In this document: positions 23,448 through 30,387 of the stretch, one piece after another | Position numbering within the stretch: position 1 is the stretch's first letter | Layout of the letters: every line of letters starts with the position of its first letter | Assembly (NCBI RefSeq): GCF_000018585.1 | Contig: NC_009976.1 | Coordinates: 1,419,941 to 1,483,940 of the forward strand | Direction of reading: 5' to 3' | From: Prochlorococcus marinus str. MIT 9211 | GTDB lineage: Bacteria; Cyanobacteriota; Cyanobacteriia; PCC-6307; Cyanobiaceae | Length of the DNA stretch: 64,000 nucleotides | Program-made: the position numbers and the translations under genes | The notes under the pieces: model-generated | Seen by the model: only the letters and a program-made list of their open reading frames with translations | What the model was told of the DNA's origin: nothing | Databases searched by the model: none

Positions 23448-24596
<1,149 letters not shown>

Positions 24597-24702
24597 TCAC
24601 CTTCCTTTGAAGGCAACTCAAACTTTAATCTAATGATCTTAGATTTATCTAGATTATAGAAAAGCAAAGTTTATCCAGTAGAATTTTATTGCCTGGCGGT
24701 TA

Positions 24703-24769
24703 CCTCCTTTATTGGAGGCAGGTGCTATCTGGAAGCTGTCGGGCGAAATGCCCGATTAAACCCTGCCTC
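24703..24769 (+). ncRNA. Structured RNA leader of the rimP operon (candidate)
   Basis: Three pairing elements are visible: CCTCC (24703-24707) with GGAGG (24714-24718); GAGGCAGG (24715-24722) with CCTGCCTC (24762-24769); and inside that, TCGGGC (24739-24744) with GCCCGA (24750-24755) closing a GAAAT loop. The first two stems share bases 24715-24718, so they are mutually exclusive. The structure ends one base before the proposed TTG start of rimP. I match it to no known riboswitch class; function is inferred. Confidence 0.45.
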
Positions 24770-25237
24770 TTGTCAAATCCAATCGTCACGAGTTTAAAGA
24801 TTCTTGCATCCAATACGGCTGCCGATAAGGGTTTAGAAGTTGTTGAGTTGAAATTTAATCCCCACAGCAAACCAATTACAATTCAAGTGCAAATCCAAAA
24901 AAAACCAAAGAAAGATGTCTCACTAGATGACTGCGCACAATTTAGTGAACTGATAAGTGAGACTATTGAACTCTCGAAATTAATCAATGAACCTTATCTG
25001 CTAGAAATTAGCAGTCCAGGTTTAGGGGATTTGCTTCAAACTGATAAAGACTTTAAAACTTTCAAAGGGTTCCCCATTGAAGTACTCTTTAAAAATAACG
25101 AAAACACAAAACTTACTAAAAGTGGACTACTGCATGAAAGATCAAAGGAATACTTGCTAATAAATATAAAAGGGAGAATCAGCAAAATCCCTAGGGAAGA
25201 TGTAATAACAGTTCAATTGACAAGCCCTACAGGCTAA
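24770..25237 (+). CDS. rimP: Ribosome maturation factor RimP
   Basis: RimP assists 30S subunit maturation. The family core is recognised in GLEVVELKFNPHSKPITIQVQI, SLDDCAQFSELISETIE, YLLEISSPGLGDLLQTDKDF, and a C-terminal SH3-like barrel. The TTG at 24770 gives 155 residues with a start (SNPIVTSLKILASNTA) that fits the family. The frame is open back to TTG at 24689, but the extra residues would overlap the RNA leader and have no family resemblance. nusA follows by 55 nt, the usual rimP-nusA order. Confidence 0.87.
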   Translation: MSNPIVTSLKILASNTAADKGLEVVELKFNPHSKPITIQVQIQKKPKKDVSLDDCAQFSELISETIELSKLINEPYLLEISSPGLGDLLQTDKDFKTFKGFPIEVLFKNNENTKLTKSGLLHERSKEYLLINIKGRISKIPREDVITVQLTSPTG

Positions 25238-25292: not shown

Positions 25293-26708
25293 ATGGCACT
25301 AGTTCTTCTCCCTGGACTCAATAACCTGATCGACGACATAAGTGAGGAGAAAAAGCTCCCTGCTCAGGTCGTTGAGACTGCTCTTAGGGAAGCACTCCTA
25401 AAAGGTTATGAAAGATATAGACGAACCCTCTATCTAGGGATTAATGAAAACCCCTTCGAAGAGGAATACTTTAGTAATTTTGATGTTGGACTGGATCTTG
25501 ATGAAGAAGGTTATCGAGTATTAGCAAGCAAAATCATTGTTGACGAAGTTGAGAGTGAAGATCATCAGATCGCTTTATCTGAAGTCATGCAAGTTGCTGA
25601 AGATGCTCAAATAGGAGACACAGTAGTTCTAGATGTAACTCCTGAGAAAGAAGAGTTTGGAAGAATGGCAGCTGCAACAACTAAGCAAGTCCTTGCTCAA
25701 AAGTTGCGAGATCAACAGCGAAGAATGATTCAAGAAGAATTTGCAGATTTAGAAGATCCTGTCCTAACTGCTCGAGTAATTAGATTCGAACGTCAATCAG
25801 TAATCATGGCAGTCAGTTCAGGGCTAGGCAGACCAGAAGTTGAAGCGGAGCTCCCTCGCAGAGATCAACTGCCAAACGATAATTATCGCGCAAATGCAAC
25901 TTTCAAAGTATTTCTAAAAGAAGTAAGTGAAACACCCAGGCGAGGTCCTCAATTATTTGTTAGTAGATCTAACGCTGGTTTAGTAGTTTATTTATTTGAA
26001 AACGAGGTACCAGAAATCCAAGAAGGGTCCGTCAGGATAGTAGCTGTGGCTAGAGAAGCTAATCCTCCAACACGAGCTGTCGGACCCAGAACAAAAGTCG
26101 CTGTTGATAGCATTGAAAGAGAAGTGGACCCAGTAGGCGCATGCATAGGTGCAAGAGGATCCAGAATTCAGCAAGTAGTTAATGAACTGAGAGGAGAAAA
26201 AATAGATGTGATTCGCTGGTCTGCAGACCCAGTCCAATACATTTCTAATTCGCTCAGTCCTGCAAGAGTTGAAGTTGTAAGGCTCGTTGATCCAGAAGGG
26301 CAGCATGCGCATGTCTTAGTGCCCCCTGATCAACTTAGTCTTGCAATTGGAAGAGAAGGTCAAAATGTTCGATTAGCAGCAAGACTTACTGGCTGGAAAA
26401 TCGATATTAAGAATTCACAAGAATATGACCAAGAGTCTGAAGATTCAGCAGTTGCTGAACTGATCTCTCAAAGAGAAGAAGAAGAAAGTCTGCAAAGAGA
26501 AGCTGAAGAAAGATTGGCTGCAGAACAGGCTGCTAGGGCAGAAGAAGATGCCCGACTAAGAGAGCTTTATCCTCTTCCAGAAGATGATGAAGAGAATATA
26601 GAAGAAAGTACAACTGAATTAGAAGAGCTTCCAATAAGTGAAAATGAAGAAGCCAAACAAAATGAAGGATTGAGTAATGAACAAAGCCCCGAGGATGGAC
26701 CCCGGTGA
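25293..26708 (+). CDS. nusA: Transcription termination/antitermination factor NusA
   Basis: A 471-residue NusA with an N-terminal polymerase-binding domain, an S1 domain (near residues 135-200), and two KH domains (ACIGARGSRIQQVVNELRGE and LAIGREGQNVRLAARLTGWK). The C-terminal ~85 residues are acidic and low in complexity (EEEESLQREAEERLAAEQA). NusA tunes pausing, termination and antitermination. Its TGA overlaps the GTG of ylxR by 4 nt (GTGA at 26705-26708). Confidence 0.96.
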   Translation: MALVLLPGLNNLIDDISEEKKLPAQVVETALREALLKGYERYRRTLYLGINENPFEEEYFSNFDVGLDLDEEGYRVLASKIIVDEVESEDHQIALSEVMQVAEDAQIGDTVVLDVTPEKEEFGRMAAATTKQVLAQKLRDQQRRMIQEEFADLEDPVLTARVIRFERQSVIMAVSSGLGRPEVEAELPRRDQLPNDNYRANATFKVFLKEVSETPRRGPQLFVSRSNAGLVVYLFENEVPEIQEGSVRIVAVAREANPPTRAVGPRTKVAVDSIEREVDPVGACIGARGSRIQQVVNELRGEKIDVIRWSADPVQYISNSLSPARVEVVRLVDPEGQHAHVLVPPDQLSLAIGREGQNVRLAARLTGWKIDIKNSQEYDQESEDSAVAELISQREEEESLQREAEERLAAEQAARAEEDARLRELYPLPEDDEENIEESTTELEELPISENEEAKQNEGLSNEQSPEDGPR

Positions 26709-26983
26709 ACCAAAAAACCGTCCTGCGTCGCTGTGTTGCATGTCGAAAATTAATCGACCGCCAACAACTTTGGAGAGTGACAAGAGACCATCAGGGCGGA
26801 GTAGTCCTCGACGAAGGCATGGGTCGCTCAGCTTATCTATGCCCTAATGAGGCCTGCCTCGAAGAAGCTTTGCGGCGCAAACGTCTCCAAAAAGCACTCA
26901 GATGTCAGGTACAGATGAGTATTTTAGAGGTGCTGCAAAATCGTTTAAATAGCTGCAATGATGCAAGCTCTGAGGCAATATGA
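26705..26983 (+). CDS. ylxR: YlxR-family (DUF448) RNA-binding protein
   Basis: A 92-residue protein between nusA and infB, the family's usual place. It has the CVACRK motif, then WRVTRDHQGGVVLDEGMGRSAYLCPNEACLEEAL. The fold is a small basic RNA-binding domain; the role is probably in RNA or nucleoid handling. Start GTG overlaps the nusA stop. Confidence 0.9.
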   Translation: MNQKTVLRRCVACRKLIDRQQLWRVTRDHQGGVVLDEGMGRSAYLCPNEACLEEALRRKRLQKALRCQVQMSILEVLQNRLNSCNDASSEAI

Positions 26984-27045: not shown

Positions 27046-30000
27046 ATGACCAGCAGCGGCAAAATCAGAATCTATGAGCTTTCTAGGGATTTAAACCTGG
27101 AAAATAAAGACGTGCTCAATGCTGCTAAAAAATTATCAATACCAGCAAAAAGTCATAGCAGCTCAATAAGCAATGCAGAAGCAAACGAAATCAAAGCATT
27201 CCTAAATAAGCAATCAAATCAGTCTATAAATAACAAAACCAAGCAAAACTCAAGCAAAGAAATCCTTTCTCTAAAAAAAGCTGGCTCAAAACCTATTAAA
27301 GATGAAATAACTAAGAAGAAAGCAAATCTCCCTCCTAAAGCCTCTGCTGAGAGTCAATCATCAAAACCAAGAATTGAAACTTCTAAAGCACCTGTTGCTC
27401 CAATTAAACCTATAAAAGAACCGGTTCAAAAAGCCAATACTTCAAATCAATCTAAGGGTGTAATTAATAATTTAATTCAACCTCAAAAACCTTCCCCTCT
27501 TCAACCTAAGCAACCGAAAAGCATTCATCTAGAAAATAATGCATCTAAACAAAATATTGAAGATAACAATAATTTTCAAGAAAGGAGCCCTCGCACGCAG
27601 CTAGTCCAAAAACCGCCATTACCCACTAAAAATAATGAGCCCCCTCAACAGAAAACAAGTATTCCCAAACGGCCTATTACACCCCCAGCGCGACCAAGCA
27701 AACCTATTCTAGACAACAGGTCTAGTGTTAAATCACGACCAATCATTGAAGCCCCACGCAAAAAAACAGGACCAGATAGAAATTCTCCTGTTCAACCACG
27801 AACACAAAACAACCAAAACCGTCAACGAATCCCTAACAAACCTGGGAAGCCTCCTTTAAGAGGAAACCCTCCTGTAGAGCTTGTTGGTGCCCCGATACGA
27901 AGAAGTAATAAGCCTAACAACAATGTCAAAGGGCCAAGAGATGGAGGCTATCGGCCAGGTCCACCAAATAGAAATGATCCTTCAAATCAACAAGGTCACG
28001 TAAAACGAGATATCAAAGCTCCAATTCGTCAACGCCCAGGAATGCCACCAGGCATGAGAAAGCCTGTCGCTCCTGGAGAGCTAATGCAGCTTCAGAAGCC
28101 AACGGGAAGGTCTCAACCTCCTGCCCCCCGAAGAGTAGGAGCACCTGCACCACCTTCCCAACGTGCAGATAGCACTAAAGACCGACAAGGAAAGTCGCCA
28201 GGGGCAAAGCAACCTGTCAATAGACCAACCCCAGCAACCGCACCCAAAAAGCCTTCTCACAGGCCTCCAGGTTCTGGTCCAACCAAAAGAAGGTCTGATT
28301 GGGATGATGCGGCCAAATTAGAAGCTTTAAGGAATAAAGCCCCTCAAAAGCAACGTCAAAAAGTTCACATTATTGGAGAAAATGACGATGCCTTAACTAC
28401 TGAAACGAGCGGTTTTGCAGCTGAGCAGGAAGCTATGGTTCTTTCTGCAAGCCTCGCCCGACCTGCAAAGCCAAAATCGACAAAGAAATCCAATTCTAAA
28501 GCAACTGTCGTAACCAGAAAGCGTAAAAAAGAGTCCACCAGACAAAGACAAAGAAGAAGAGCAATGGAACTTCGAGCTGCTCGTGAGGCAAAGCAAGTTA
28601 GACCTGAAATGATCATTATTCCAGAAGGTAATCTCACAGTTCAAGAACTTGCAGATAAGCTCAGCGTTGAAAGCTCTGAAATCATCAAATCACTATTCTT
28701 TAAAGGAATAACAGCAACAGTCACGCAATCATTAGATCTATCCACTATCGAAACAGTTGCAGAAGAATTTGGTGTCCCAGTATTACAGGATGACATAGAA
28801 GAAGCTGCAACTAAAACAGCTGAGATGCTCGATGAAGCAGACAAAGATCACTTAATCAGACGACCACCTGTAGTGACAGTTATGGGCCACGTTGACCATG
28901 GCAAGACAAGTCTTCTGGATGCAATACGTAAAGCAAGAGTTGCCAGTGGCGAAGCGGGGGGAATTACGCAACATATAGGCGCATATCAAGTTGAGCTAGA
29001 ACATGAGAAGAAAAAGCGAAAGCTGACTTTCCTCGATACTCCTGGCCACGAAGCATTTACAGCGATGCGTGCAAGAGGAACAAAAGTGACCGATGTGGCT
29101 GTTCTTGTTGTTGCTGCAGATGACGGTGTACGGCCACAAACCCTAGAGGCAATAAGCCATGCTCGTGCTGCGAAAGTACCCATCGTTGTAGCCATAAATA
29201 AGATTGACAAAGAAGGTGCATCTCCTGATCGTGTCAAACAAGAATTATCTGAACAAGAATTAGTTGCGGAAGAATGGGGTGGAGAGGTAGTAATGGTACC
29301 TGTCAGTGCCATTAAAGGAGAAAATATCGACAAGCTCTTAGAGATGGTTTTACTGGTAACTGAAGTAGAAGACTTACAAGCAAATCCAGATCGACTCGCC
29401 AAAGGAACTGTGATTGAAGCTCACCTTGACAAAGCCAAAGGACCAGTTGCAACACTATTAATTCAAAATGGAACTCTTAAATCTGGAGATGTTCTTGCTG
29501 CAGGGCCAGTACTTGGAAAAGTACGAGCAATGGTAGACGAAAATGGCATACGTCTAAAAGAAGCTGGTCCCTCATGCCCAGTAGAAGCACTTGGCTTTAA
29601 CGAAGTACCTACAGCAGGAGATGAATTTGAGGTTTATCCAGATGAAAAATCAGCAAGAGCAGTAGTTGGCGATAGAGCATCTGACGCTCGTGCAACACGA
29701 CTTGCCCAACAAATGGCCTCAAGGCGCGTATCACTTTCTTCAATGTCAGGCCAAGCCAATGAGGGAGACTTAAAAGAATTAAACATCATACTCAAAGCCG
29801 ACGTACAGGGAAGTATAGAAGCCATATTAGGCTCACTCGAGCAACTCCCTAAAGACGAGGTACAAGTAAGAGTATTACTATCTGCACCAGGAGAAGTAAC
29901 AGAAACAGATGTAGACCTCGCGGCCGCGTCTGGAGCAGTAATAGTAGGCTTTAACACCTCAATGGCTTCTGGTGCCAAAAAAGCAGCAGATGCTAATAGT

Positions 30001-30387
30001 GTTGATGTTCGAGATTATGAGGTTATATACAAGCTGCTAGAAGATATTCAACTAGCAATGGAAGGCCTATTAGAACCTGACATGGTCGAAGAAAGTCTTG
30101 GAGAAGCTGAAGTCCGAGCCATCTTCTCTATTGGGAAGAGTGCAGTGGCAGGCTGCTATATCACCAATGGTAAATTGCAAAGAAATTGCAAAGTTCGAGT
30201 CAAAAGAGGTTCTCAAATAGTTTTTGAAGGAGATCTTGATTCATTGCGTCGAAACAAGGATGTTGTCAAAGATGTCGGCAGTGGATTTGAATGTGGCGTA
30301 GGTTGCGATAGATTCGCGAATTGGAAAGAGGGGGATATTATTCAAGGCTATAAGCTGGTGACAAAACGTCGCACACTAGGCCCGTAA
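27046..30387 (+). CDS. infB: Translation initiation factor IF-2
   Basis: IF-2 places fMet-tRNA on the 30S subunit. The 1113-residue protein has the GTPase domain starting near residue 613 ([21 protein letters not shown]), followed by two beta barrels and an IF-2-type C-terminal domain. The N-terminal ~550 residues are a long proline-, lysine- and glutamine-rich disordered region, with the small N-terminal helical module at residues 1-50 ([22 protein letters not shown]). Such long N-terminal extensions are usual in marine picocyanobacteria. Confidence 0.97.

Follow-up and report, generated by a model that had tools for sequence, protein, structure and literature searches.

The E. coli rpsO leader, a pseudoknot bound by S15, mediates autogenous control, and infC is autoregulated through its rare AUU start codon. 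The region before rimP in Prochlorococcus marinus MIT 9211, described here, resembles the former in placing a leader pseudoknot beside the start codon of a translation-machinery operon, but differs from it in having no Rfam match and, in MIT 9211, no Shine-Dalgarno-like sequence directly before its TTG start. It shares with infC a conserved weak start codon at a gene of the translation apparatus; the codon is, however, TTG or GTG rather than AUU, it is associated with a folded leader in another way, and discrimination by IF3 is not evidenced here.

The closest described system is the rimP-leader (Naville and Gautheret 2010), a terminator-type attenuator before rimP-nusA-infB with a conserved GGGc(...)gCCC stem, for which NusA was proposed as the reader; rimP ranked first there among genes with predicted attenuators, and the available part of the main text makes no mention of cyanobacteria (PMC2965389). 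The MIT 9211 leader occupies the same operon and the same place (a 5' UTR, as inferred from a -10 box), and shares the GGGc(...)gCCC hairpin, which is TCGGGC-GAAAT-GCCCGA in MIT 9211 and GGGC...GUCC in many relatives, a short GC hairpin being weak evidence of homology. In contrast to the rimP-leader, leaders of the MIT 9211 type have no U run but possess two extra stems (P1 and P2) and a pseudoknot, and in picocyanobacteria the TTG or GTG start lies at the end of an alternative stem. The anatomy of the leader differs from that of the described terminator type, and it has no Rfam entry.

Structured cyanobacterial RNAs, several of them marked as marine, include the glnA, Downstream-peptide, PhotoRC, psaA, psbNH, Cyano-1 and Cyano-2 motifs (Weinberg 2010; PMC2864571), and leaders of other operons were treated by Axmann 2005; within the available parts of the main texts, neither rimP nor nusA appears in PMC2864571, and nusA and infB are absent from Axmann 2005. 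Among the papers searched, none treats rimP together with a leader, cyanobacteria and nusA, and none connects it to a UTR in Prochlorococcus.

The window analyzed here is a stretch of 64,000 nucleotides inside the complete MIT 9211 genome of 1,688,963 bases. We tentatively propose, with a little less than even confidence, that the 5' UTR of the rimP-nusA-ylxR-infB mRNA in this window is a conserved cis-regulatory switch that would act on translation and is likely autogenous. That this is a cis-regulatory RNA is a well-supported idea, and a switch between two states is plausible from the sequence; regulation itself, its translational level, its autogeny and its direction are parts of the proposal that we infer.

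Anatomy of the leader and the rimP start codon

The initial annotation had read three pairings before rimP, CCTCC/GGAGG (here P2), TCGGGC/GCCCGA (hairpin H) and GAGGCAGG/CCTGCCTC (here P4); all are present where it had placed them, and P2 and P4 are mutually exclusive, as it had claimed, both using 24715-24718 (Table 1). It had also set one base between the last stem and the TTG codon, but the arm ends at 24769 and the codon occupies 24770-24772, with zero bases between. Two pairings had been missed: P1 (CCTG/CAGG), and the pairing of CGGTT with AGCTG, a pseudoknot (PK) because it crosses P1.

Table 1. Features of the rimP leader and operon, in positions of the window
Feature	Position	Strand	Remarks
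-10 hexamer TAGAAT, inferred rimP promoter	24679..24684	+	predicted transcription start about 24690-24692
Structured leader RNA including TTG start codon, conserved	24690..24772	+	covariance-model match E 9.1e-17
P1 5' arm CCTG	24692..24695	+	partner CAGG 24719-24722; 91.1% of cells paired, no covariation excess
PK (pseudoknot) 5' arm CGGTT	24697..24701	+	partner AGCTG 24734-24738
P2 5' arm CCTCC (first stem of the initial annotation)	24703..24707	+	95.4% of cells paired
P2 3' arm GGAGG	24714..24718	+	common to P2 and P4
P4 5' arm GAGGCAGG (second stem of the initial annotation)	24715..24722	+	partner CCTGCCTC; 78.2% of cells paired
P1 3' arm CAGG	24719..24722	+	common to P1 and P4
PK 3' arm AGCTG	24734..24738	+	partner CGGTT 24697-24701
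Hairpin H, TCGGGC-GAAAT-GCCCGA	24739..24755	+	TCGGGC 24739-24744 / GCCCGA 24750-24755; 97.7% of cells paired
P4 3' arm CCTGCCTC	24762..24769	+	adjoins start codon; pairs with GAGGCAGG
rimP	24770..25237	+	TTG start at 24770-24772; RimP_N, E 9.1e-16; N-termini colinear in relatives
nusA	25293..26708	+	NusA_N and NusA-like KH domains
ylxR (DUF448)	26705..26983	+	Pfam YlxR, E 7.5e-22; RNA-binding in other bacteria
infB	27046..30387	+	IF-2 domains

The core layout runs from the -10 hexamer through GCCTGnCGGTTACCTCC, GGAGGCAGG, the conserved unpaired sequence CTGAAACCG, the TCGGGC hairpin and CCTGCCTC to TTG, and the leader is 74-84 nt long in 99 sequences. When the hexamer was allowed at positions 4-9 before the element, TANNNT was found ending 5-7 nt 5' of it in all 79 non-redundant core sequences; five shifted positions give 2-20 of the 79 rows, and a sixth 1 of 60. 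The left arms would lie within the RNA, because this -10 box puts the predicted start of transcription near 24690 (about 24690-24692); the initial annotation had noted that a start downstream of 24703 would remove those arms, and the promoter recognized in the sequence places the start upstream of that position.

Homology of the N-termini assigns rimP a non-ATG start in the family: among the matches listed, 90 leaders carry TTG (84) or GTG (6) and none carries ATG. The protein can be read from the start codon at 99 of 100 loci, 88 being colinear with RimP and 11 short but, by eye, RimP N-termini. In the MIT 9211 genome the rimP frame is open across the leader (24689-24769), from a TTG at 24689, so that automatic annotation may put the rimP start too far upstream.

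Conservation of the leader and tests of its pairings

The leader and its position before rimP are conserved in the picocyanobacterial family. RimP has a match in 381 of 400 family genomes, and the 90 leaders read are those among the matches listed, closest RimP first, so that they lean toward near relatives; 62 have the core form, 27 are diverged (12 of type g35, 7 of type g5 and 8 of a freshwater type, assigned by eye) and one (L076) is unrecognized. A covariance model built from the 62 core sequences has the leader, itself in the training set, as its sole match in the MIT 9211 genome up to E 10, and, under strict filters and with E no higher than 0.01, matches 114 of the 400 family genomes, some of these being training sequences. 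All 100 loci submitted to the model match; they were taken from 130 fetched loci by omitting 12 of type g35, 9 freshwater-type or unrecognized, 6 g5-like or other, and L014, L046 and L070. Of the 12 g35 loci, 8 have an E of 0.011 or better; the freshwater type is a diverged form GCCCGGCGGGCA ... CTGCAGnnGCCGGTCGGGC recognized by eye, and those of its loci that were scored do not rise above chance (best 12.7 bits, E 0.095). Scanning named genomes for an exact pattern returned 13 stretches, of which 11 are labelled Prochlorococcus, one is labelled Prochlorococcaceae and one comes from an uncultured cyanobacterium; exact patterns had no match in viral contigs.

A search of Rfam 15, which had been suggested with the initial annotation, gave no family match to 24560-24900 up to E 10, and with gathering cut-offs returned only tRNA from the whole window. 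In the g35-type leaders L050, L056, L057, L058, L059, L065, L067 and L089 we observed GGGAGGGTGATC, a near complement of the 3' end of 16S rRNA (GATCACCTCC).

The element is dispensable, since several lineages do without it. Genus g18 has no member among the 114 genomes matched by the covariance model, and seven g18 loci do not exceed 9.5 bits when the filters are switched off; the bases before rimP hold no leader in L121, L128, L138 and L147, and L149 and L150 have no recognizable element. Genus g18 is probably high-light Prochlorococcus, with small, AT-rich genomes, and has probably lost the element.

Folding energy alone is too weak to decide the matter and is barely beyond chance: z is -1.80 for the 85-nt leader (7 of 200 shuffles equally good) and -0.89 for a 161-nt stretch (40 of 200). 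The minimum free energy fold of the 85-mer has P2 and that of the 161-mer has P4, and folds forced into the two states are 0.6 kcal/mol apart in MIT 9211. With the energy of the pseudoknot not counted, the states lie at most 3 kcal/mol apart in 41 of 78 sequences, and a preference of more than 3 kcal/mol falls to the P2 state in 31 and to the P4 state in 6. It is because the element is conserved in relatives that we place it beyond chance, its energy being modest.

The RNAalifold consensus of 62 sequences consists of P2 and H only, with double changes in 5 of its 12 pairs and a covariation term of -0.85; P1, PK and P4, absent from it, were for that reason proposed by hand. In alignment A2, whose counts lean toward P1, P2 and H because it was fitted to these and not to PK, the four pairings pooled over 99 distinct sequences are paired in 89.9% of cells (86.9% when shuffled) and have 80 double-changed cells (32.5 when shuffled); none of 500 shuffles reaches either figure, and slid partners are paired in 34-48%. 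Further tests used 79 rows, obtained from the 100 loci by leaving out L227 (no in-register start codon) and 11 g5-type loci and by merging 9 duplicates. Among the leaders read, L028 had its start set by hand. Column shuffles of the 79 rows give p <0.0005 for P2 and for H, 0.06 for PK, 0.52 for P1, which shows no excess because it hardly varies, and 0.73 for P4. Under a tree-aware null (2000 simulations), p for paired cells is 0.075 for P2 (0.011 with an over-represented genus thinned), 0.058 for H (thinned 0.087), 0.025 for P1 (thinned 0.060) and 0.0005 for PK (thinned 0.001); double-changed cells are in excess in H (0.024, thinned 0.008), and neither P1 nor PK has double changes above the null.

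P2 and H covary. Compensatory changes in homologs had been named with the initial annotation as a check on its proposal, and changes on both sides that keep the pairing are found in both stems: three pairs of P2 have them, and one C-G pair of H has turned U-A in 14 sequences. We make no strong claim of covariation, because this C-G/U-A pair of H is the only one to pass a G-test against the tree null (E 0.009 over 28 named pairs, 0.5 over all column pairs). PK is paired in 79.2% of cells in the register of the fixed alignment and in 89.1% in a register set by a fixed rule, which, with one gap moved in one genus, may slightly favor it. We regard the PK pairing as moderately supported; PK, P1 and P4 are less firm.

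A possible switch and its rivals

In the mechanism we have in mind, the 5' half of the leader (P1, P2 and the CGGTT pseudoknot) would be transcribed first and fold into a first state in which the stretch immediately 5' of the weak TTG stays free; in a second state GAGGCAGG would pair with CCTGCCTC, and the bases next to the start codon would be locked up. The state would be picked by a factor, most likely an RNA-binding protein that the operon itself encodes, which would so set the translation of rimP. The exclusive stems seem sometimes to be repaired independently, in a small count of cases: L009 and L074 have GAGACAG/CTGTCTC at P4 with P2 minus one pair, L080 has CAAG/CTTG at P4 with P1 minus one pair, L071 has U-A at the base of P2 with P4 lost, and L020 has a double change in PK, CAGTA/TACTG. 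The initial annotation had proposed an RNA switch or feedback site for this operon, which a ribosomal protein or NusA, for example, might control; its cis-acting RNA before rimP-nusA(-ylxR)-infB stands up, being conserved and supported, whereas its pair of alternative states is less secure, as the tests of P4 conflict.

These tests bear on a second explanation, possible if rather doubtful, in which a protein (NusA, YlxR, RimP or another) binds the hairpin and pseudoknot and ribosome entry is blocked with no P4 switch, the complementarity of CCTGCCTC arising in part as a by-product of the C-rich stretch ahead of the start codon. Such binding would fit the better support for P2 and H than for P4, and the GGG...CCC core of H, like that of the rimP-leader for which NusA was suggested as the reader (PMC2965389). 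It would also fit P4 showing no covariation excess when letters are shuffled among sequences (78.2% of cells paired, 78.1% when shuffled); double changes in P4 are not above the tree null, under which its paired cells give p 0.018 (thinned 0.031), and 13 of the 79 core sequences keep at most 4 of the 8 pairs. The complementarity is, however, register-specific, falling to 48-67% when the partner is slid, and in a comparison that allowed gaps and offsets the duplex of a core sequence's own arms is stronger than that of permuted arms (-11.0 vs -10.1 kcal/mol; 60 sequences; p 0.0001, relatedness ignored).

Arms from the diverged forms point both ways. A different strong pair, for example GGAGGGT/ACCCTCC, with -14.7 kcal/mol or lower, is found in 9 of 12 g35 sequences, and this again speaks against protein binding with no switch; the 12 g35 sequences average -15.0 kcal/mol with their own arms and -9.6 with core arms, their own arms being no better than those of other g35 sequences (-15.3 kcal/mol). 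For core 5' arms, foreign C-rich partners from the freshwater type (-11.2 kcal/mol) are as good as their own, in keeping with the by-product explanation, and g5 5' arms reach -10.8 kcal/mol with g35 3' arms vs -8.9 with their own. With the last 13 nt alone, g35 and freshwater sequences pair no better with their own arms than with shuffled arms. The arm-duplex comparison covered six of eight freshwater-type rows, L073 and L086 having been left out because a different hairpin was picked in them by the hairpin finder. In several g5-type sequences, by eye, AACTGA/TCAGTT encloses the hairpin instead. We take P4 to reflect a conserved propensity for closing the start region, its covariation being unproven.

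Improbable, in our judgment, is a 5' end whose structure is static and contributes to mRNA stability or to a constant low translation with TTG, no regulation being involved. The start of the element at the inferred transcription start, the non-ATG codon in 90 of 90 leaders (among the matches listed) and the retention of the genes in g18, which has no leader, are all compatible with it, but an alternative pairing together with the conserved unpaired CTGAAACCG exceeds what a stabilizer would need, and autoregulation of the operon is reported elsewhere (PMC2965389).

Other cyanobacteria bear on whether the leader attenuates transcription as the known rimP-leader does. From 46 class-level rimP upstream stretches outside the family, 20 were chosen by the author (L181-L200); ATG stands at the homologous rimP start in all 20 (by eye), and a G(T/G)GGG...CCC hairpin with a T run is found by pattern in 16, and by eye additionally in L198. 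Ten of these hairpins lie within 17 nt of the start and six at 42-123 nt. Although a GTGGG...CCCAC-like hairpin with a T run thus precedes rimP in most of this set, and H carries a GGG...CCC core, attenuation of this kind is very unlikely in the family, where none of the 90 leaders among the matches listed has a hairpin with a T run. The sequence after H in MIT 9211 is TTAAACCCTGCCTCTTG; because there is no U run, we rejected H as a terminator.

Least credible of all is that the pairings arose by chance in a GC-rich patch, or that rimP has a coding extension at its N-terminus from the TTG at 24689, for which the energy z-score of just -1.8 and the open frame in MIT 9211 might be cited: the leader is conserved with single-base insertions and deletions among relatives, on which grounds we rejected a coding sequence, and the rimP frame is open across the leader in 41 of 99 cases. 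We likewise rejected mimicry of RNase P RNA or 16S rRNA, because the longest words in common, 6-10 bases in sense or antisense, are in the same range as those of shuffled leaders, which reach a maximum of 10-11 bases. We note separately that GGAGGCAG and CCTGACGG lie ~40 bases apart in the 16S rRNA of L260 (bases ~310-360), as leader words in swapped order; the single matches are within chance.

Candidate readers and the history of the leader

NusA and YlxR are candidates for the protein that would read the leader. According to the available part of the source, NusA is reported as a repressor of the rimP operon in E. coli, and many bacteria have a leader there (PMC2965389). We nominate YlxR beside NusA because its homologues bind RNA; in Synechocystis the homologue Ssr1238 is described, in the part of the report available, as interacting with RNase P and acting in tRNA maturation (PMC12475003).

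Identity of YlxR to the MIT 9211 protein is 65-79% in six relatives and 34-40% in seven g18 genomes, vs 92-96% and 87-88% for NusA and 73-77% and 65-69% for RpiA, used as a control. Two g9 genomes without a recognizable leader have 43-44% identity in YlxR, and four genomes of g31, g47 and g59 without a leader at rimP have 58-65%. We rejected YlxR as the sole reader, because the leaderless g31, g47 and g59 genomes keep this identity and the divergence of NusA also about doubles; for the same reasons YlxR stays a lead. The g18 genomes with a diverged YlxR are G017, G067, G116, G151, G320, G374 and G399, and the drop in identity there is larger than for NusA, RimP or RpiA. In one partial genome (G066:C3:82004-82279) the ylxR match holds one TAA stop.

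The simplest history is that the family lost a terminator and gained the present leader, and the likeliest reading is that a translational, probably autogenous, switch replaced a transcription attenuator. A fuller scenario, in which the attenuator was replaced by a pseudoknotted switch that sequesters TTG, is read by NusA or YlxR, and later disappeared from a Prochlorococcus genus that is AT-rich and probably high-light, is speculative and, taken as a whole, rather unlikely.

Ribosome assembly, transcription elongation and translation initiation come together in the rimP-nusA-infB operon. Having no terminator but a different structured leader and a conserved non-ATG start, this lineage is a natural comparison for the study of which operon protein reads the leader, and the element described here would add a regulatory RNA absent from Rfam in very abundant marine phototrophs.
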